A stretch of DNA of 64,000 bases, from contig NZ_CP058579.1 in assembly GCF_013402875.1 (NCBI RefSeq), forward strand, positions 3,286,001 through 3,350,000, read 5' to 3'. Positions 55,490 to 64,000 of the stretch are shown in pieces. The stretch's first letter is position 1; each line of letters opens with the position of its first letter. The notes under the pieces are model-generated. The model searched no databases. It saw only the letters and a list, made by a program, of their open reading frames with translations, and was not told the origin of the DNA. The translations under genes were made by a program, and so were the position numbers. This DNA comes from Halorarum salinum (lineage in GTDB: Archaea; Halobacteriota; Halobacteria; Halobacteriales; Haloferacaceae).

Positions 55490-55627
55490 ATGGGAGAGAC
55501 GGCGTTCGCGACGCACTGTCCGCTCTGCGGGACCGAACTGACGGTGGCCGCAGAGGCCTACAGGACGCGGGTCAGGTGCCCCGAACACGGGCGAATCCAG
55601 GTCGACGTGTATCGGTTCGGGACGTAG
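55490..55627 (+). CDS. Zinc-ribbon mini-protein
   Basis: 45 residues, MGETAFATHCPLCGTELTVAAEAYRTRVRCPEHGRIQVDVYRF. CPLC and CPEH supply three Cys and one His, a single zinc-ribbon. The 55-residue protein at 38166 has the same CPLC...C-P-x-H-G core. It lies divergent from the small DUF7511-like gene and is the last core-like gene before the AT-rich element. Confidence 0.6.
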   Translation: MGETAFATHCPLCGTELTVAAEAYRTRVRCPEHGRIQVDVYRFGT

Positions 55628-55929
55628 ACCGCTCGGTCGGGAGACTGCGAGTTCCGGGAGCGGACGGGGAGCGGAAGAGCGTGGGGACGGTTCGTCCGGT
55701 CAGTCCGAGCCGAACATCTGGCGCATCAAGCAAAAAGTAGCAACAATTTACTAACAAATAGGATAAAATATCCACTACTGGGTCGTTCCTCCAGTATAAG
55801 TTAGACCGACAACGACTCGACGGCCATCCCTGCGTCTTCCGCCCGAGACCAGCATTCGACTAAGTGAACGGAAAGTTGCGACCGTACATATACCGTGAAA
55901 TCGGATTTTCGGGGTCAGGCGGAGACTGA
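55628..55929. other. 302-base boundary between core and AT-rich element
   Basis: Up to about 55725 the DNA is GC-rich. From about 55735 (GCAAAAAGTAGCAACAATTTACTAACAAATAGGATAAAATATCC) base composition drops sharply and stays low to the window end. No tRNA gene or integrase is seen at this junction, and I could not identify a direct-repeat attachment site. Confidence 0.5.
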
Positions 55930-57654
55930 CTACTGCTTTTTACCCCTGACAGTTTCCTCGGGCATGTGTCTCGCCTTCACCTTCCGCCATCGCCACTGAA
56001 CAACTAGGAGAATTCCAAGAAGGAGGCTACTTGTGAAGAGTCCGATTAAGAAAACTTGGCCTGCGGACTCCCACCAAGCGAGTGTGAGTGCGCCTAAATT
56101 CACAAGCAGTGTGGATGCCAACACGAATTCCGGTTCATAATCGAACTGTCGTCGTATCCACATACTTGCATCCTCAAAGTAGAGTAAGATAGCACAACAC
56201 AATGGCAAAATAAAGATGACTCCGCCAATATGCAGTGCAAGGGTTAGCCCGTCCACCTGCCAAGTTACTGCGGTGAAAAACACCGCAACACCAGCACTTT
56301 GAATGATACAATTCACCATGATTGTCCTCGATTCCGAGTAGGGGGATTGAGGGGGGTGGGTCTGAGTCCAGCGCAGTGACCAGAACAAGAAAAGCCCCCC
56401 ACCTACCCAGAAAATCGCGTACACGAGGAGAACCGCGTAGGACTCAGCGCTGGTAGAGGCGAGTTGACTTAGCCACGCAATGAACGGGAAGATTAAGAGA
56501 TACACCGACGCTGGCAGCATCCCCCACCGAGGTCGAGTCTTGAGGTGCCTGGCGGCGTTAGCATCGAACCCCTCTTCGCTGAGGCCATGTGTCTGCTCCC
56601 ATGCTGTGACGAACGCGGGAAGTCGGCACAGTTCAATCCGCCAGAACCATGCCCCGTAGATTCCGAAGACTACGAGGACTCCGGCGACTGAGAGTGTGAG
56701 AAGTTGAAGCACACTCGTTCCCCCGATTAGGCTGAAAGTCCCAATCAGCACACTGGTTGCTGCCAGCACCATGAGTGCCGGATATATGAAATTGGCGAGT
56801 ACGGCAGCCAATGCGAAGTATCCTTTAAAATTGTGAATCCGTGGACTCGATACAATCTCCACAATCACCGATTCCGAATCAATGGCGGCGATGATGCCGT
56901 CCGAACTATCTACTGCTCTGAATCGCGACGCGATATACGGGCCGACCAGCACACCACCGAGCAACGCCAATTCAGGTAACGGATAGTAAAAACCGATGAC
57001 CGGGAGGAACACCCCGACAATGAGGAAGGGGGTGATTATCGTCAGGGGGACTACTCCCCGAAATAGGAGAGTCTCTATTACCTCCCACCACCATGAAACA
57101 GTGCCCCGCAGAGCGTGTTCTGCCACTGCGTACTCGTGTTTTACATCAGCTATGGGTCTCCGCTTTAGCATCGCCACTAGATGAAGCCCATATTGGTGTG
57201 GATATGCGTCGTCCTGTCGAAAATGAACGAAGTACGTATCGATAACCACTATCGAAACCATGATTGTAGGAAAGAGAACCTCCAATTGGCTGAGATTCTC
57301 AATATGAGGCGCAGACGGGTGAATTCCACCAAACAATGCTGAAAACGCTAGCGACGTGCCGGCGAGGATGGCCTGTAAACTGGAGGTTGGTATTACGGCT
57401 GGAAGGATGTGCAGTACCTTGCCAGCGAAGAGGTAGATTGTGTAAAAGAACAGTAAATTTGAGGAGAGGAGACCGAACACCGCAAACATCTCAAATTCAT
57501 GGGTTAATAAGGAAATCAGCGCAAGGAGACCGACTTTGTGCCGCTCTGTGACTTGGAAAGGAAGTCGTCTCCTGATGAGATTGCGAAATCTACGGTGAAG
57601 GGCGTTGATGAAGTCGCGTTGCACCGTTACTCTCCCTATGCTATTTCTTATCAC
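55930..57654 (-). CDS. Orphan polytopic membrane protein
   Basis: 574 residues from a GTG start. I count about 12-13 helices, from VGLLALISLLTHEFEMFAVFGLL near residue 42 to VFLIGLFTSSLLLGILLVVQW near 545. A soluble loop with TYFVHFRQDDAYPHQYGLHLVAMLKRR (about 160-190) and a basic N-terminus face the cytoplasm. No transporter signature is recognised. Codon use and GC content differ from the core genes, as for the whole segment. It is the leftmost gene of the putative element, with nothing co-oriented close to it. Confidence 0.6.
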   Translation of the reverse strand: MIRNSIGRVTVQRDFINALHRRFRNLIRRRLPFQVTERHKVGLLALISLLTHEFEMFAVFGLLSSNLLFFYTIYLFAGKVLHILPAVIPTSSLQAILAGTSLAFSALFGGIHPSAPHIENLSQLEVLFPTIMVSIVVIDTYFVHFRQDDAYPHQYGLHLVAMLKRRPIADVKHEYAVAEHALRGTVSWWWEVIETLLFRGVVPLTIITPFLIVGVFLPVIGFYYPLPELALLGGVLVGPYIASRFRAVDSSDGIIAAIDSESVIVEIVSSPRIHNFKGYFALAAVLANFIYPALMVLAATSVLIGTFSLIGGTSVLQLLTLSVAGVLVVFGIYGAWFWRIELCRLPAFVTAWEQTHGLSEEGFDANAARHLKTRPRWGMLPASVYLLIFPFIAWLSQLASTSAESYAVLLVYAIFWVGGGLFLFWSLRWTQTHPPQSPYSESRTIMVNCIIQSAGVAVFFTAVTWQVDGLTLALHIGGVIFILPLCCAILLYFEDASMWIRRQFDYEPEFVLASTLLVNLGALTLAWWESAGQVFLIGLFTSSLLLGILLVVQWRWRKVKARHMPEETVRGKKQ

Positions 57655-57834
57655 GGTTCCCCCATTAATGTAGTTGTGCGTTAGATAATGTGGATTTGAT
57701 ATGTGCGCTTATCAATCTATGTCGTAATCAATTGGTCAATTCCCTATGACGGGGCCCTCTCGGCCACCTCAAATCATGAGAGCAGGAAATTACCGGCAGT
57801 GGCTCGCCCCGTTCAGCGAAGCCGTGGAGTGTCC

Positions 57835-57948
57835 TCACCCATTCCGTGAGTCGAGGGTGTCCAATTCGAAGTCCGTCCACAATTCATCCGGAAGTAGATG
57901 GTCCACCTGACGCCTGCGGAGGTAGACCGGCAGTTCGGGGTTGATGGT
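57835..57948 (-). pseudogene. Possible remnant of an unidentified gene
   Basis: Between two stops the minus strand reads TINPELPVYLRRRQVDHLLPDELW and then TDFELDTLDSRNG, which has normal protein composition, unlike the neighbouring frames. There is no start codon, and the frame closes after 37 codons, with a similar piece (GIEGTPGPLTELEGQAI) before the upstream stop. It is likely a decayed gene; I cannot name the family. Confidence 0.3.
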
Positions 57949-58146
57949 TTAGATGGCCTGTCCTTCGAGTTCAGTGAGGGGCCCAGGTGTCCCCTCGATA
58001 CCAAGATACCTATAATTTGTAGACCCCGTTGCTCCGTTTCAATTTAGATGTGACTCTGAGGGGTAGAACCGCCTCGATTACACACCTCGTACCGAGTGAA
58101 GATTCACGGGTTAGGCTCATAGAGAGGGGTCGTGAGGCGGGGGTAG

Positions 58147-58176
58147 ATGGGTGAAAATGGGTGAATGGATGGGTAG
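58147..58176. repeat. Three ATGGGT(GA/AG) direct repeats, iteron-like
   Basis: ATGGGTGAA at 58147-58155 and again at 58157-58165, then ATGGGTAG at 58169-58176. Spacings are 10 and 12 bases, about one helix turn, as for cooperative protein binding. Partial copies occur nearby (GGGTAG at 58141). Confidence 0.6.
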
Positions 58177-58262
58177 CCAATAACGGGTTTCTAACCCACC
58201 TAGTCCCATCGAAAACAATAAGTATACATATTGGCTTCAGGTTTCTCAGATGGTTACAAAAC

Positions 58263-58291
58263 GGGTGATTCCAAGGGGGATAGAATCACCC
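58263..58291. repeat. Nine-base inverted repeat GGGTGATTC / GAATCACCC
   Basis: Perfect arms (58263-58271 and 58283-58291) are separated by 11 bases. The arms contain GGGTGA, the same core as the direct repeats 90 bases upstream. It lies just before the CCTATAGGG promoter element of the 63-residue ORF. Confidence 0.6.
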
Positions 58292-58304
58292 ATCTAGGAG
58301 CATA

Positions 58305-58313
58305 CCTATAGGG
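58305..58313 (+). promoter_or_regulatory. TATA-like element of the 63-residue ORF
   Basis: CCTATAGGG is centred about 26 bases before the ATG at 58335. It follows the inverted repeat at 58263-58291 by 13 bases, an operator-like arrangement. Confidence 0.5.
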
Positions 58314-58334
58314 TACTTCAACGTTTCTACATGT

Positions 58335-58526
58335 ATGTTCAACGAAGAGAAGTGGGAACTGGCTGCATGGCTCTTGAATGCTCGCGGGTATCTGAAGAAG
58401 GGGGACATCCCCAATGAGTACACGGCGGAGGAACTCGTAGAGATGGGCTTGCTTCGACAGGAGGGAGACCGATACGTCCCCGGAGAACGCGCTGAGCTTC
58501 ACATGGAAGCTGCTAGGGAAGAGTAA
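58335..58526 (+). CDS. Small acidic protein of the element, unknown function
   Basis: 63 residues, MFNEEKWELAAWLLNARGYLKKGDIPNEYTAEELVEMGLLRQEGDRYVPGERAELHMEAAREE. The helix-rich first half and a short strand pair (QEGDRYVPG) suggest a mini winged-helix or adaptor fold, which could suit a DNA-binding regulator, but no family is recognised. TATA and operator-like repeats precede it. The opposite-strand frame here is a shadow. Confidence 0.55.
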   Translation: MFNEEKWELAAWLLNARGYLKKGDIPNEYTAEELVEMGLLRQEGDRYVPGERAELHMEAAREE

Positions 58527-58779
58527 CCGTTTAGTGAAGTACTTTCGCTGCTCTGTTGAAACCCTGTTTTCAGACACAACTCAGTGAAAGACAACCACAA
58601 GTTTGTCTGCAAACCGAGTACTAGAACGGTTGTTAGATGAACTTACGTCAATTGGTGTGTCTTGAATATAAGACACCCACCAGGTAGCGATTAGAGGATT
58701 ATATTCAGGATGAATAAACGTTTTATAGCTCAACCAAGTCGAGAATTATTCATAATAACCATATCTATCGCTGAGATGA

Positions 58780-59343
58780 CTATTCAGGGATATGTATGGC
58801 GATAAATTGCATAATGAATCCAAGTGAGAGGAGTACGAACCCAAACCACTTGATGACTGCAGGCCGTTGTATTTCCCGGAATTGGTCATATTCCGACTGT
58901 ACTCCGGGTGGTTCACCAATAGCCCGCTTACTGAGGTCCGCATTTTTCACATCCTTTCCCCGTTTAATGGCATTCAGATGAGCATTGATACCATCTTTTT
59001 CTCTCTTCAATGGTGGGTTGAGTAGATAGAAGAGCATCAGTAAACGCTTAGATAGTGAGATTCTCTTGCGCTTAAGATACCATAACAACTGAGCAAGGAC
59101 ACCTGTGCCCGCTACCGCGTCGTACGAAATCAACATTGCACCGATTATGTCGTAAGCCAGTCCGATAGAAGTAATGGCATCTGAGTTTAGCAGAATCGGT
59201 TGAATAGCTGGAAACACTTTGAATAAGACGGCTAAGCCAACTAAAAATATACTTAATCCCCCACCGAGGGCTAATATTACCCCGGTGAACGAAAGAAATG
59301 CCGGTAGAGAGTTATATCCATTTGAGGTCATCAACATCGCCAT
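58780..59343 (-). CDS. Membrane protein of the element, unknown function
   Basis: 187 residues from the ATG at 59343 (a GTG at 59352 is possible). Helices lie at about residues 15-40 (FLSFTGVILALGGGLSIFLVGLAVLF), 55-85 and 165-183 (FGFVLLSLGFIMQFIAIHI). The central soluble part KRKRISLSKRLLMLFYLLNPPLKREKDGINAHLNAIKRGKDVKNADLSKR is very basic. Low GC and A/T-ending codons mark it as foreign. About 115 bases separate it from the next co-oriented gene. Confidence 0.6.
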   Translation of the reverse strand: MAMLMTSNGYNSLPAFLSFTGVILALGGGLSIFLVGLAVLFKVFPAIQPILLNSDAITSIGLAYDIIGAMLISYDAVAGTGVLAQLLWYLKRKRISLSKRLLMLFYLLNPPLKREKDGINAHLNAIKRGKDVKNADLSKRAIGEPPGVQSEYDQFREIQRPAVIKWFGFVLLSLGFIMQFIAIHIPE

Positions 59344-59458
59344 CTTACTCACCCCAATTGTAATTAACTAATAGGTTTGCAGGGAATTCAGAATGCGAAA
59401 TTTCGATTCTCTCAACATCTCCGAAGTTGAGCTGACCGTTAATCGGTTAAGATGACTA

Positions 59459-59797
59459 CTAGCTGCTTCCCTCTTTCTCGTGATTCCAAAACTCCCAAGC
59501 GACAACTACCTCCACGTTGCACTTGACGCAGTATCCTACGAGGTTTCGTACGTTTTCAACATGGATTAGAGCCACGATAGACGAGTCAGGTGGGAGGACG
59601 AACTCATTAAACTGAGTCCGCATCCACCTCGCCCTGGGGCCCAACTGCACGACTCCAACACGCGCACCGTCCACCTCCACGTGCTTGTCGAGACGGACGA
59701 CTACACTCTGACCCGTCGCCCGGACTCGACCGCGCAGTCGAGGGTTGGTCGCTGTCCCGACAAACTCAACGAACGGGGACTCCGACGAGGTGCTCAT
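59459..59797 (-). CDS. Unknown protein translationally coupled to MCM
   Basis: 112 residues, MSTSSESPFVEFVGTATNPRLRGRVRATGQSVVVRLDKHVEVDGARVGVVQLGPRARW, then a CVKC pair near residue 90. It is beta-rich, with an OB- or SH3-like look in the first 60 residues. Its ATG overlaps the MCM stop (ATGA), so it is made together with the helicase and might be a replication partner. No family is recognised. Confidence 0.6.
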   Translation of the reverse strand: MSTSSESPFVEFVGTATNPRLRGRVRATGQSVVVRLDKHVEVDGARVGVVQLGPRARWMRTQFNEFVLPPDSSIVALIHVENVRNLVGYCVKCNVEVVVAWEFWNHEKEGSS

Positions 59798-61848
59798 TCG
59801 AAATCACCAGTGTACAGCTTTCCGTCGTCCTGCTTCACCCCTGACTTCGAGGGGTCTCCAATTTTGCCGTTTACGAACTGCTGGAGGTTGGCTCTTTTCT
59901 CATTTGTCTCCTCGGTGAGAGCATCCATTACTTCACTACGGTCTACACCTCCATCTTCATCAGCAAGATTGCGGATGGTTTCGCGGAGAATCTGAATCTT
60001 CTCTCTGACTGGAGCCGACTCGCCGGAGAGAACGTCCATATCCAACTGGCCCTTCTCATTGGTCATCATCAGTGTCATCCACGTGTCCATCATGTGGATT
60101 GCTCGCTCCGCATCCTCTAGGTCTACTGTATAAGATAGGCGGATTCGAGCAGACGCTTCGGCGAGTCGGATAGCCGAGTAGAACTGGCGGACGCCGACAG
60201 CAGTCCGGATACCGTCCGAACTATTGCGGAGAGAGACCCACCACTCGTGAATCTCGTCGCCCGCCTCGTCCGTCATCTCGGGGTCGATGGTGCGTGCGTG
60301 AGCTACGTACTTCGTCATCCGCTCTGGGGAGATGTACTCGTGAGCCTCGCCTTTCACACGGTTCAGAATCGAGTCTGCGATGGCGTTGTCCCGCTCCTCA
60401 TCGGGTTTGTTCACGAACGGGACAATGACATCCATCCGGTCCCAGACGACATCGTTGATGTTTATCTGGTTCTTCAGCGGTGTCGAAAGGTCGAACCGGG
60501 AGTGGTCGGGGTTGGCGACGAGAAGCGCGCCGCACCGAGTCGGGAGCGTCGCGCGGATGTCGTGCTTCGCGACGGAGACCTCCTGCTCTTCGAGCGGCTC
60601 TTGGAGGCAGTTCCGAACTGACTCCCTACCCTTGTCCAGTTCGTCGAGGACGATGAGGCCGCCGTCCGCCTTCACGAACGCACCGCCCGTCAGGGTCGCC
60701 TTCGTGGTATCGAAGTCATCTTCGTAGCTGATAGAGGCGGTGAGGCCAGCTTGTGTGGCGTTGTCTGCGCTCTGGTAGACAGACTTCGGGGCGATTTTGG
60801 CGATGTACTTGGCGAGGTCGGACTTCCCGGTACCTGGGTCACCGACGTACGCCACGTGGATGTTCACCCGTTCCTTCTGGTCGTCCGTATCACGACGAAC
60901 ACCGCCGACGAGCTGGTAGAGGCCAGCCATCCGCGCAAGCTGGTAGTCGCCCTTGATGGACGGAGCGATGGACTCAGAGAGCGTCTCGAACACGTCCCCC
61001 GAGGAAGCAATCTCCTCGTGCTTGGCGCGGTCCTCATCCGTGAGTTCGACGCCGTTGTACCCTCGGTCGTGGTGTTTGATGCCGACCACTTGCAGGAAGT
61101 GCTTCGAGTTCTTGTCGTCGTCCTCCGTCGCCCGGAGGATAGCCGTCACCGTGACGGTCTCTCCGGACTCAACCTCGTTCACGAGTCGGCAATTCAGGTC
61201 TGCTCGCAGTTCCGCCGGATTCGGCGTGGACGCGAGCGTGTGGAGGTCTTGAAGGATGACCTGCTGACGGTCAACGATGTCGCCCTGCTGAGCGAGGTGG
61301 TCGAACCACTTGCGCGCCTTATTGTTGCAGTCCTTGGAGGTGCACTCCCGTGGGTAGTCCAGTTCCCCTGCCGCGCGGGACTGCCGACGGGTCATCTTGT
61401 GGCCGCAGTCAGCGCACTGGAAGACTGCGTAGATGTGTCGGTCGTACACATCCGTCCGCTTCATCACTCGCGCCTCAACCGATACGAGTGTCCCTACCGA
61501 CGATGCGCGTAGGTCTTCGAGTCGCTGGTGAGATGGGAACTCCCCGACGAGGTGGACATCCGTGTCGTTCTCGTAGCAATCCCGAGCAGCCAGCGTGAGG
61601 TGGAAGAGGAGGGTGTCCGGGTGGGAGACGAAATCATCGAGAACCTCATCTCCAACGGGCTTTGAGATATCATCCGCCGTCCCCATGATGACGCCATCGA
61701 CTGGCTCTAGGCCACTGACAACTTGCTTGAGGGTAGACTCAGCCTTGGGGTCCGGTCCGTGAGCGCCGAACAGGAGCGGGCTGGTTACCTCCTCGTCGCT
61801 CGGGGAGGGCGATACGTCCGTCTGGGCGTCATCTTGCTGGGATGACAT
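59794..61848 (-). CDS. mcm: MCM replicative helicase encoded by the element
   Basis: 684 residues. The N-terminal domain has a zinc site (C145, C148, C169, C174) and the OB-fold. The AAA+ core has Walker A GDPGTGKS (336-343), Walker B GLIVLDELDKG (about 397-407) and the MCM box SRFDLSTPL with DRMDVIVPF. The C-terminal region ends in a wHTH-like segment (NEKRANLQQFVNGKIGDPS). Usual MCM Walker A is GDPGTAKS; here the Ala is Gly. An AGTAAAGG promoter on the minus strand lies 26 bases upstream. It would unwind the element's own DNA. Confidence 0.92.
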   Translation of the reverse strand: MSSQQDDAQTDVSPSPSDEEVTSPLLFGAHGPDPKAESTLKQVVSGLEPVDGVIMGTADDISKPVGDEVLDDFVSHPDTLLFHLTLAARDCYENDTDVHLVGEFPSHQRLEDLRASSVGTLVSVEARVMKRTDVYDRHIYAVFQCADCGHKMTRRQSRAAGELDYPRECTSKDCNNKARKWFDHLAQQGDIVDRQQVILQDLHTLASTPNPAELRADLNCRLVNEVESGETVTVTAILRATEDDDKNSKHFLQVVGIKHHDRGYNGVELTDEDRAKHEEIASSGDVFETLSESIAPSIKGDYQLARMAGLYQLVGGVRRDTDDQKERVNIHVAYVGDPGTGKSDLAKYIAKIAPKSVYQSADNATQAGLTASISYEDDFDTTKATLTGGAFVKADGGLIVLDELDKGRESVRNCLQEPLEEQEVSVAKHDIRATLPTRCGALLVANPDHSRFDLSTPLKNQININDVVWDRMDVIVPFVNKPDEERDNAIADSILNRVKGEAHEYISPERMTKYVAHARTIDPEMTDEAGDEIHEWWVSLRNSSDGIRTAVGVRQFYSAIRLAEASARIRLSYTVDLEDAERAIHMMDTWMTLMMTNEKGQLDMDVLSGESAPVREKIQILRETIRNLADEDGGVDRSEVMDALTEETNEKRANLQQFVNGKIGDPSKSGVKQDDGKLYTGDFE

Positions 61849-61871
61849 ACTATCAGTTGTGCGGGGGGAGA

Positions 61872-61879
61872 GTAAAGGT
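61872..61879 (-). promoter_or_regulatory. TATA-like element of the MCM gene
   Basis: Minus strand CCTTTACT is centred about 27 bases before the MCM ATG at 61848, consistent with a leaderless transcript. Confidence 0.5.
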
Positions 61880-62083
61880 ATATCGGCATTCTGATATGAA
61901 GTGTATTAAAACCATTCGAAATCGGGGGGTCGGGGGGGTTACCCCCCATTTGACCCCCATTAGATGGACGATAGAGAATTTGTACCTTCAACCATACATA
62001 AACCGATTGGTGGAAATCCAGAGGGAGGGTTCAGGACGAGTCTCTTAGAGATTCGATGTTCAAGACACCAAACTTTTACGTTG

Positions 62084-62095
62084 CTTGTTAACAAG
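62084..62095. repeat. 12-base palindrome CTTGTTAACAAG
   Basis: A perfect palindrome follows ACTTTTACG (62072-62080), a TATA-like sequence. It could be an operator or a binding site in an origin region. Confidence 0.55.
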
Positions 62096-62410
62096 TAACA
62101 AAGTAAAAACTTCCTCTAGATACCCCTAATCCCCCCCTCCCCCCACCTTGGAAGCAGATTTGGTAGGGAGAAATCCCTATCCCTATGAATTCGGCAGAAT
62201 AAGGGGGGTCTGTAAGGGGTCTGTTCGGCACCCCCCCTTACCCCGGCATAGAAGGACTTAAGCAGTCGGAAGTCTTACATATATTCGTTCAGAAACCGCC
62301 ATCCTTCGTCGGGGTCGGCCATCTCTGGACGAGTCAATCTTGCTGGGAACCGGCGGGCGGGGAATCCCCGCTCGCTGCTCTCGTTCACTTGCCTGAGCTG
62401 TGGCTGCAGT

Positions 62411-62446
62411 AGTACATCTGTGCGTCAGTACGCCAGTACATCTGTG
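62411..62446. repeat. Direct repeat AGTACATCTGTG, 24-base period
   Basis: Two identical 12-mers at 62411-62422 and 62435-62446. A related inverted phrase (ACATCCAGATGT) lies at about 62511-62522. Confidence 0.55.
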
Positions 62447-62727
62447 TGGTAATGCAGTTTACTGTCGAGGTGTCTATCCGGTAATCTTCCCAGCAATCCA
62501 GTCAGACATACATCCAGATGTGCAGAAACAGAACCAGACAGAAGCAACGACGACAACCCGCGTGCAAGGATATCAGCAACGCACGCGGGCCAACAAGAAT
62601 CCCAACCGAACGTGATGCAGTATCGACCAGGGCGGTCAATCGAGTGTGTTAGCTATCCTGTGTGCGACTCCCGGTGATGGGTCATCGCACGAGTATACCA
62701 ACGCGGACTATCAGCATAAGCGGGGTC

Positions 62728-62928
62728 TCAACTCCCATCCTCATGCGGGATGACTAGGGCGTCTGTAGCCTCGTTCGTCGGTGTCCTCTGTAGCGAATCC
62801 TTGAACTCTCGCCGCCGGAGGAACTCGTCAAAATCCTCTCCGAACACTTCCTCCACGTCCTCTTCGGTCGCTTCGCCTAGGCAGTACTGGCGGTACACCC
62901 GTTCTTTCGCTTCCTCGTTGCCGGTCAT
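62728..62928 (-). CDS. Small acidic protein of the element, unknown function
   Basis: 66 residues from MTGNEEAKERVYRQYCLGEATEEDVEEVFGEDFDEFLRRREFKDSL. All-helical with strong charge; similar short proteins act as antitoxins or DNA-binding adaptors, but I see no known motif. A CTTTTACC box about 22 bases upstream on the minus strand supports this start over a longer frame to 63102. Confidence 0.55.
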   Translation of the reverse strand: MTGNEEAKERVYRQYCLGEATEEDVEEVFGEDFDEFLRRREFKDSLQRTPTNEATDALVIPHEDGS

Positions 62929-63125
62929 GGCCAAGTCACTTGTTGGTAAAAGTGTTGACTCGTTCAAAGGCGTTTTGTCGGCTGTGAATAGAGGTATTCG
63001 AGTTCGAAACCAGTAGAGAATAGGCTTACAGCGGAAATGTACGCTTGAACCGGTTCTGAGACCAGTATCTAACGAACACATGGTAAATCTGAAATATAAC
63101 AAGGACCGGTGAGTGGGTCGTCCTG

Positions 63126-63353
63126 ATGGAGCTTGATATCACCGGCGAGGGTGGATACTCCGACCTGACGATGGGACTCGATGCGACTACGACGCTGGCC
63201 ATCATCCCTACTGAGACGCAGGTCCGGGTGAGCCTCACATCACGTGCCGGTCACGGAGAGATGGGTCTTGGCGTCGGTCTCACTGCAGAGGAGGCGCGGG
63301 ACGTGGGCGAGCAACTCCTCGCTCACGCGACCCTTCTGAACGAGAACGATTAA
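63126..63353 (+). CDS. Small beta-rich protein of the element, unknown function
   Basis: 75 residues, MELDITGEGGYSDLTMGLDATTTLAIIPTETQVRVSLTSRAGHGEMGLGVGLTAEEARDVGEQLLAHATLL. Strands are followed by one helix, with the end (GLTAEEARDVGEQLLAHA) reading like a conserved helix that fixes residues to a sheet. An AAATATAACAAGG promoter is about 30 bases upstream. No family is recognised. The HEPN-type ORF follows 26 bases later on the same strand. Confidence 0.55.
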   Translation: MELDITGEGGYSDLTMGLDATTTLAIIPTETQVRVSLTSRAGHGEMGLGVGLTAEEARDVGEQLLAHATLLNEND

Positions 63354-63379
63354 ATAAATGACAACGCACTGGGCAGACA

Positions 63380-64000
63380 ATGAAAATGAAACTCAGCTTC
63401 TCACCTGTTCATCTTCACGCCGCGAAAGCTCTCTCTTTGGAGGTGGAGGAGATTGAAGCAGCGTTAGCCCAGGGGGAGGAAGATGAGTTCGCAAAAGGAG
63501 AGATACCCGTACGGATGATTCATGATGGCTATGCAGCTAATGCCATCATCAGTTCGACCGCGTTCTTGGAAGCCTCTGTCAACGAGGTCTTCGATTTAAT
63601 GATGACCGCAGCCGAAGGGTGGGAAAGAGCTGGAAAAGATTGGACCGGCACCATGGACGGGGAAGTAATCCTCTACCGTGTGTTACTCGGACTTCGTGAT
63701 GTTGACAAGTATTGGTTCAAGAACAAGAACTCGTTGAAGAAGTATCAACTCCTACTTGTTCACACCGGACGTGAACCCTTTGACACAGGGGAAGGGCTCT
63801 ACCAGCGCGTCAATACGGTCCGTAGATTGCGAAACGACCTCATTCACTTTGAGCCAGATTGGTATGACAGTAAGGAGGAAATCAGTCCACCTGGAAGCAT
63901 CCCGAATGGCTTGGATTTCAATCCATTCTATGAGACAACCCGTGACCCGAAATCCTTCCTTTCTCACGAGATTGTGGATTGGGCCATCGAATCCTGCGCA
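63380..64000 (+). CDS. HEPN-motif protein, cut by window end
   Basis: 207 codons are present without a stop. From MKMKLSFSPVHLHAAKAL the protein is mainly helical. The segment YQRVNTVRRLRNDLIHFEPDW contains R151-N-D-L-I-H156, the Rx4H motif that forms the active site of HEPN ribonucleases, placed at the start of a helix after a long helix bundle as in the RNA-cleaving members. HEPN proteins often serve as toxins or antiviral effectors. In this element it may be a defence or addiction gene, or a non-nuclease structural HEPN. The C-terminal end is unseen. Confidence 0.6.
   Translation, partial: MKMKLSFSPVHLHAAKALSLEVEEIEAALAQGEEDEFAKGEIPVRMIHDGYAANAIISSTAFLEASVNEVFDLMMTAAEGWERAGKDWTGTMDGEVILYRVLLGLRDVDKYWFKNKNSLKKYQLLLVHTGREPFDTGEGLYQRVNTVRRLRNDLIHFEPDWYDSKEEISPPGSIPNGLDFNPFYETTRDPKSFLSHEIVDWAIESCA

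Follow-up and report, generated by a model that had tools for sequence, protein, structure and literature searches.

We tentatively read the 680-bp gap at 57655-58334 of the window (the whole stretch of 64,000 nucleotides of the Halorarum salinum genome analyzed here, positions 3,286,001 to 3,350,000 of contig NZ_CP058579.1) as the control region of a haloarchaeal integrative element lodged in the 3' end of secY. Copies of the motif A[CT]GGGTGA, a tandem pair and a further pair forming a dyad, stand in this gap upstream of the likely promoter of a small acidic ORF, p63, and would form a putative operator bound by a regulator encoded on the element, for which the winged-helix-like p63, acting at its own promoter region, would be the best candidate. 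We infer that a protein binds the motif, that p63 is this binder and that binding controls transcription, and we regard the reading as a whole as possible, somewhat short of probable. The gap also holds an ORB-type box at 58080-58098, which the earlier sequence-only reading of this DNA missed and which is a stronger feature than the repeats; it suggests that there is a separate Orc1 signal here and that the gap may also serve replication. Taken alone, the repeats are modest, and the interest lies mainly in a lone Orc1 box beside an element-borne MCM. The setting outweighs the repeats: a set of secY-targeting elements, of which two have both an MCM and boxes matching an Orc1 clade that they do not themselves encode.

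An integrative element in secY

The element is 16.2 kb long (16,165 bp) and is inserted in the 3' end of secY. Its parts include:

55710-55728: left att repeat CCGAACATCTGGCGCATCA, 19 bp, repeated exactly and in direct orientation at L014:7875-7893, within the 3' end of secY
58335-58526, plus strand: p63, an acidic ORF of 63 residues, weakly winged-helix-like, a candidate regulator
59794-61848, minus strand: MCM-type replicative helicase of the element, assigned by a family match

At 55.5 kb the GC content drops from about 0.7 to 0.4-0.6, and the lower level continues until about 8 kb past the end of the window. Beside the left att, on the minus strand, the original last codons of secY can still be read by eye (MRQMFGSD, then a stop). 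A tyrosine integrase at L014:6002-7114 (PF00589, E 1.2e-10, and a match to PF02899) adjoins secY together with a 206-aa gene, and a BsuBI/PstI-type restriction enzyme and an N6 methylase occupy L014:3251-5922. With its tyrosine integrase, direct att repeats at both ends and restored target gene, this is an integrative element, several of whose proteins have no family match.

The integrase is matched at E up to 1e-20 in 54 of 392 genomes of the order, a count that includes the H. salinum genome itself, and at 53-67% identity in seven genomes besides H. salinum. The integrase and a gene of the 206-aa type directly follow secY in six of these seven stretches (L156-L161), and in the seventh (L162) secY was not found. 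We read these stretches as a group of haloarchaeal secY-targeting integrative elements. SNJ2-like and other haloarchaeal integrative elements, as an excerpt of a review presents them (PMC8371274), likewise have an integrase, att direct repeats and a restored target gene end, but differ in their target, which here is the 3' end of secY; secY is not mentioned in that excerpt. Nor do haloarchaeal elements in secY appear in titles or abstracts among the papers listed.

The helicase is an accessory MCM like those of BJ1 and HJTV-4, none of which is close: identity to haloarchaeal virus and plasmid MCMs (BJ1, HJTV-4 and others) is 25-31% among the best 20 of 25 plasmid records and all 16 phage records, and the best relative, at 39%, is found in G058. 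Searches by short exact peptides, which reach close relatives only, returned no match to the element's MCM or to p112 in viral contigs and none to the integrase in GTDB contigs, and p112 had no match in the plasmid collection.

A motif cluster upstream of p63

The gap and its signals are as follows:

57655-58334: gap of 680 bp between p574 (minus strand) and p63 (plus strand), holding all signals below
57835-57842, minus strand: further ATGGGTGA copy in the same gap
58080-58098, plus strand: exact ORB-type 19-mer ACACACCTCGTACCGAGTG, followed by AAGATT; linked elsewhere to one Orc1/Cdc6 clade
58144-58174, plus strand: tandem ATGGGTGA, ATGGGTGA, ATGGGTAG, with starts at 58147, 58157 and 58169
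58216-58233: AT-rich, TATA-like stretch CAATAAGTATACATATTG, a putative promoter
58259-58295: dyad whose two arms each carry a further motif copy, A[CT]GGGTGATTC, with a perfect 9-bp core
58302-58313, plus strand: another TATA-like stretch and putative promoter, CCTATAGGG at 58305, which lies about 27 nt 5' of the p63 ATG

The sequence-only reading had described three ATGGGT copies at spacings of 10 and 12, an inverted pair and a 63-residue ORF, and all of these are present. The copies stand at the three tandem starts above, though only the first two are full ATGGGTGA, the third, ATGGGTAG, being imperfect. The inverted pair, GGGTGATTC at 58263-58271 and GAATCACCC at 58283-58291, is a perfect 9-bp match around an 11-nt loop, and because TAGATGGGTGA at 58144-58154 recurs inverted at 58286-58296, the tandem motif is present in the hairpin arms as well. 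The same reading had placed repeats and hairpin together before a TATA element, which is correct for the stretch at 58305 and incorrect for the TATA-like TATACATA at 58223, which has the tandem copies on one side and the hairpin on the other.

A motif search across the element yields seven A[CT]GGGTGA, five of them inside the gap against 0.07 expected there (0 of 500 shuffles), a figure that flatters the motif because it was picked post hoc, after inspection; the two copies at 57315 and 60871 lie within coding sequence. Across the 64-kb window ATGGGTGA, also chosen post hoc, occurs four times against 0.77 expected (0 of 100 shuffles). Exact TAGATGGGTGA is found at three sites in the whole genome, two of them in the gap, and the cluster is therefore the element's own and not a host-wide signal; with one mismatch there are 20 host-genome sites versus 12 in a reversed control, a small excess elsewhere.

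This concentration of the motif argues for an operator, as does the position of the dyad directly upstream of the TATA-like stretch before p63, with arms that share the tandem core. Against it stands the failure to find any region homologous to the gap in 60 close genomes, the genomes of the order or plasmids. The operator layout that had been suggested from the letters is thus plausible in that the motif is both tandem and inverted upstream of p63. The suggestion that the small ORF encodes the binder has a weak winged-helix likeness (best E 0.016) behind it, and the element's other family-less proteins could be the binder in its place.

By composition p63 looks like a coding frame, with a pI of 4.6 and a coding-like codon-position GC, whereas the antisense frame, at pI 9.1, is unlike coding. 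A single-sequence AlphaFold model, with no alignment behind it, has a pLDDT of 71 and a pTM of 0.51. Foldseek places winged-helix proteins high among the matches to this model (IclR, the best, together with MotA, PadR, Sso10a and MarR), in a field where all matches are weak, none falls below E 0.001, and O-methyltransferases and RuvB are mixed in; the model thus gives a weak hint that p63 may be a DNA-binding protein. No family was found for p63 in Pfam (E up to 0.1), NCBIfam or PHROGs (E up to 0.01), no sequence match in the PDB, and no relative in 59 other close genomes or in PLSDB plasmids. The 391 other genomes of the order hold no credible relative, the one match being of 30 residues in G306 at E 0.008, and short exact peptides, which reach close relatives only, gave no match in IMG/VR or GTDB contigs.

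A lone ORB-type box

When 58060-58540 was searched as DNA in 60 genomes, the region matched itself and, in short stretches, G013, G054 and G044. The G013 and G054 matches cover 58080-58106 and lie in repeats beside orc1/cdc6 genes, and that in G044 is 27 bases long. Exact copies of the 19-mer ACACACCTCGNACCGAGTG are present in 12 of 197 genomes, against none for a reversed control; when up to 1 mismatch is allowed, 64 of 392 genomes have it, against a single match for the control. Both counts include H. salinum. These 64 genomes were followed through 29 first-site loci and 15 further stretches, a part of all their sites. Orc1-like sequence lies within the 3-kb locus at 19 of the 29 first-site loci. 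Orc1 loci with at least 60% identity to the G013 protein (six distinct) have 3-5 boxes each at up to 1 mismatch, two of the eight at 50-59% have one box, and among those below 50% none of 50 has a box, with one box at L166, where Orc1 is truncated. The box thus appears, from these comparisons of sequence, to track one Orc1/Cdc6 clade.

A count by site gives a similar but looser picture. Of our 91 distinct sites, which come from 58 loci mostly chosen for the presence of the box, 63 have Orc1-like sequence within 1 kb: in 52 cases its identity to the reference Orc1 is at least 60%, in 2 it is 50-60% and in 9 below 50%, the last 2 + 9 running against a strict clade picture. At the other 28 there is no Orc1-like sequence within 1 kb, and since 11 of these 28 lie in stretches of 3.1 kb or less, the linkage of box and Orc1 may be undercounted. 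AAGAT directly follows 7 of the 91 sites, as it follows the element box, and all seven are within 1 kb of Orc1-like sequence.

The box raises the possibility that the element, once excised, starts its replication in the gap, with Orc1/Cdc6 acting in trans on the ORB at 58080-58098 and the element's MCM being loaded there; the G-rich repeats and an AT-rich stretch near 58195-58254 would help opening. We think this unlikely, yet it has several points in its favor. The 19-mer is exact and tracks one Orc1 clade, it is followed by the AAGAT that elsewhere stands near Orc1-like sequence in every case, and the element carries an MCM, as does the other MCM-bearing secY element found, L156, which has two near-boxes and no Orc1 match. 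An excerpt of PMC3936714 further reports that Haloarcula hispanica origin plasmids replicate without cdc6 in cis. In the same excerpt, however, the H. hispanica origins depended on a co-located cdc6, and oriC1 was impaired when either ORB was lost, whereas the element has a single box in 55001-72500, even at 5 mismatches, and no inverted partner for it. A tblastn search with the clade Orc1 found no match in the element, and the genome's own Orc1s fall outside the clade (best E 3e-37, 41% over 220 residues). Of the features of an Orc1/Cdc6-dependent origin, the gap thus has an ORB of the clade and has neither two inverted ORBs around an AT-rich stretch nor an adjacent orc1/cdc6. The AT content near 58195-58254, at 0.57-0.65, is no higher than that of 57675-57735, and the G-rich gap at 61849-62727 before mcm is another candidate for an origin. 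Around boxes elsewhere, GGGTGA shows no clear excess: 74 origin-box stretches of other loci contain 29 copies, where shuffles gave 22.9 on average and 34 at most, and a tie between ATGGGTGA and those boxes was dropped on this count. Finally, since 28 of the 91 sites are without Orc1-like sequence within 1 kb, a box need not be an origin.

The plasmid pHTUR04 of Haloterrigena turkmenica has the same 19-bp box beside HTUR_RS24735, in one exact and several 1-2-mismatch copies. There the boxes stand upstream of the plasmid's Orc1/Cdc6 gene, in groups opposed to each other, whereas the H. salinum element has one box and no Orc1. According to an excerpt of PMC3528665, pHTUR04 has three orc/cdc6 genes, all with predicted origins, and the type of ORB is linked with the family of Orc.

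Closest to the H. salinum element by its integrase is L156, from G182, which is also the only other stretch among the seven with an MCM (37% identity). Its near-boxes have 1 and 2 mismatches, and the best Orc1 of G182 is at 47%. No MCM match and no box turned up in the six other integrase stretches, of which one is an 8.6-kb fragment and one was not seen beside secY. MCM and box thus seem to go together, in 2 of 2 elements with an MCM versus 0 of 6 without, a pattern that is suggestive only. From it one may imagine the element as an initiator-less replicon, which brings its own MCM and a lone Orc1 box and takes the clade Orc1/Cdc6 from another replicon, an idea that we put forward as a long shot. 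If it were true, the element would replicate only in cells with such a plasmid, or would titrate that initiator, and the adjacent ATGGGTGA switch would decide whether it stays in secY or replicates. A second example would then be the secY element of G182, which carries an MCM and two near-boxes but no Orc1, and an archaeal mobile element could borrow the initiator of another replicon. The 19-bp box itself offers a marker by which one group of haloarchaeal origins is readily searched for.

Some other accounts of the box were set aside. It was dropped as a remnant of an orc1 gene, as the element has no Orc1 match, and as a host-wide signal, as the genome has one exact copy. Two IMG/VR matches to the box lie within open frames and were taken as chance, and matches in a phage collection, at E 3 or worse, were dropped.

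Several observations on related sequences stand apart from these questions. Box-like 19-mers (up to 1 mismatch) occur inside orc1 genes or a remnant at L123:7584, L124:6400, L204:2516, L215:2118 and L218:1159. The flanks of all five read as codons just before GTGKS, so that these copies coincide with the Walker A region; they may reflect chance or a selected internal binding site. Far from any Orc1 gene, the 19-mer also occupies a constant position within dispersed repeats (L119/L120; L227 and L237; L121, L233 and L235). Copies in the same orientation lie 0.5-5 kb apart in L227, L119 and L234, and in L119/L120 the synteny of the two species breaks about 55 bp past the 19-mer. The element box may be a passenger like those in dispersed repeats. 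The 880-bp gap at 61849-62727 contains long runs of G and of C, besides an AT-rich part that is Tn-free.

Chance, RNA and iterons as accounts of the repeats

For the putative operator upstream of p63, a plainer account is that repeats and hairpin are chance picks from a long sequence, in a gap whose promoters are ordinary and which lacks any special motif. When the 16,165-bp element was shuffled 200 times with its dinucleotides preserved, 13.5% of the shuffled elements contained some 6-mer in three copies within 30 nt, 18% an 8-mer in three copies within 150 nt (either strand counting), and 48.5% an inverted repeat of 9 bp whose loop is 3-11 nt. The real element has another cluster of the 8-mer type at 68119 and another such inverted repeat at 71858. 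Because features of this kind are so frequent in shuffles and have second examples in the element, the repeat triplet and the hairpin are each weak alone; conservation was not found, and the third tandem copy is imperfect. Set against this are the one core common to all copies in a single gap, at 5 versus 0.07 expected for a motif chosen post hoc, and the excess of ATGGGTGA in the window. On balance we find chance alone a rather unlikely account.

The hairpin might instead act as minus-strand RNA downstream of mcm-p112-p190, as a 3' end or a structured leader. On the minus strand (58292-58256) it folds at -20.7 kcal/mol (z -6.1), with 15 pairs including G-U, against only -13.6 kcal/mol (z -2.6) on the plus strand, and a short T-rich tail follows it on the minus strand. 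We nevertheless think such a role improbable: 55600-64000 has no Rfam match at the gathering threshold, a terminator scan returned no terminator-like site, the hairpin lies about 490 nt past the p190 stop, and the tandem copies are left unexplained.

Iteron-controlled plasmid origins have several tandem repeats of about 17-22 bp. The gap resembles them in its short direct repeats near helical spacing (10 and 12 bp), yet its units are too short at 6-8 bp and too few with two full tandem copies, there is no Rep gene, the adjacent p63 has no Rep family match, and neither p63 nor the repeat DNA was matched in plasmids, the latter giving only noise in PLSDB (E 6). The proposal in the sequence-only reading of classic plasmid iterons bound by a Rep-like protein accordingly fails, as far as relatives are findable, because the repeats are not conserved in relatives, and we give it next to no chance.

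A 15-codon frame, MVTKRVIPRGIESPI, runs from 58250 to 58297 on the plus strand; it starts about 27 nt past a TATA-like stretch and spans the hairpin, and could be a leader peptide or chance.
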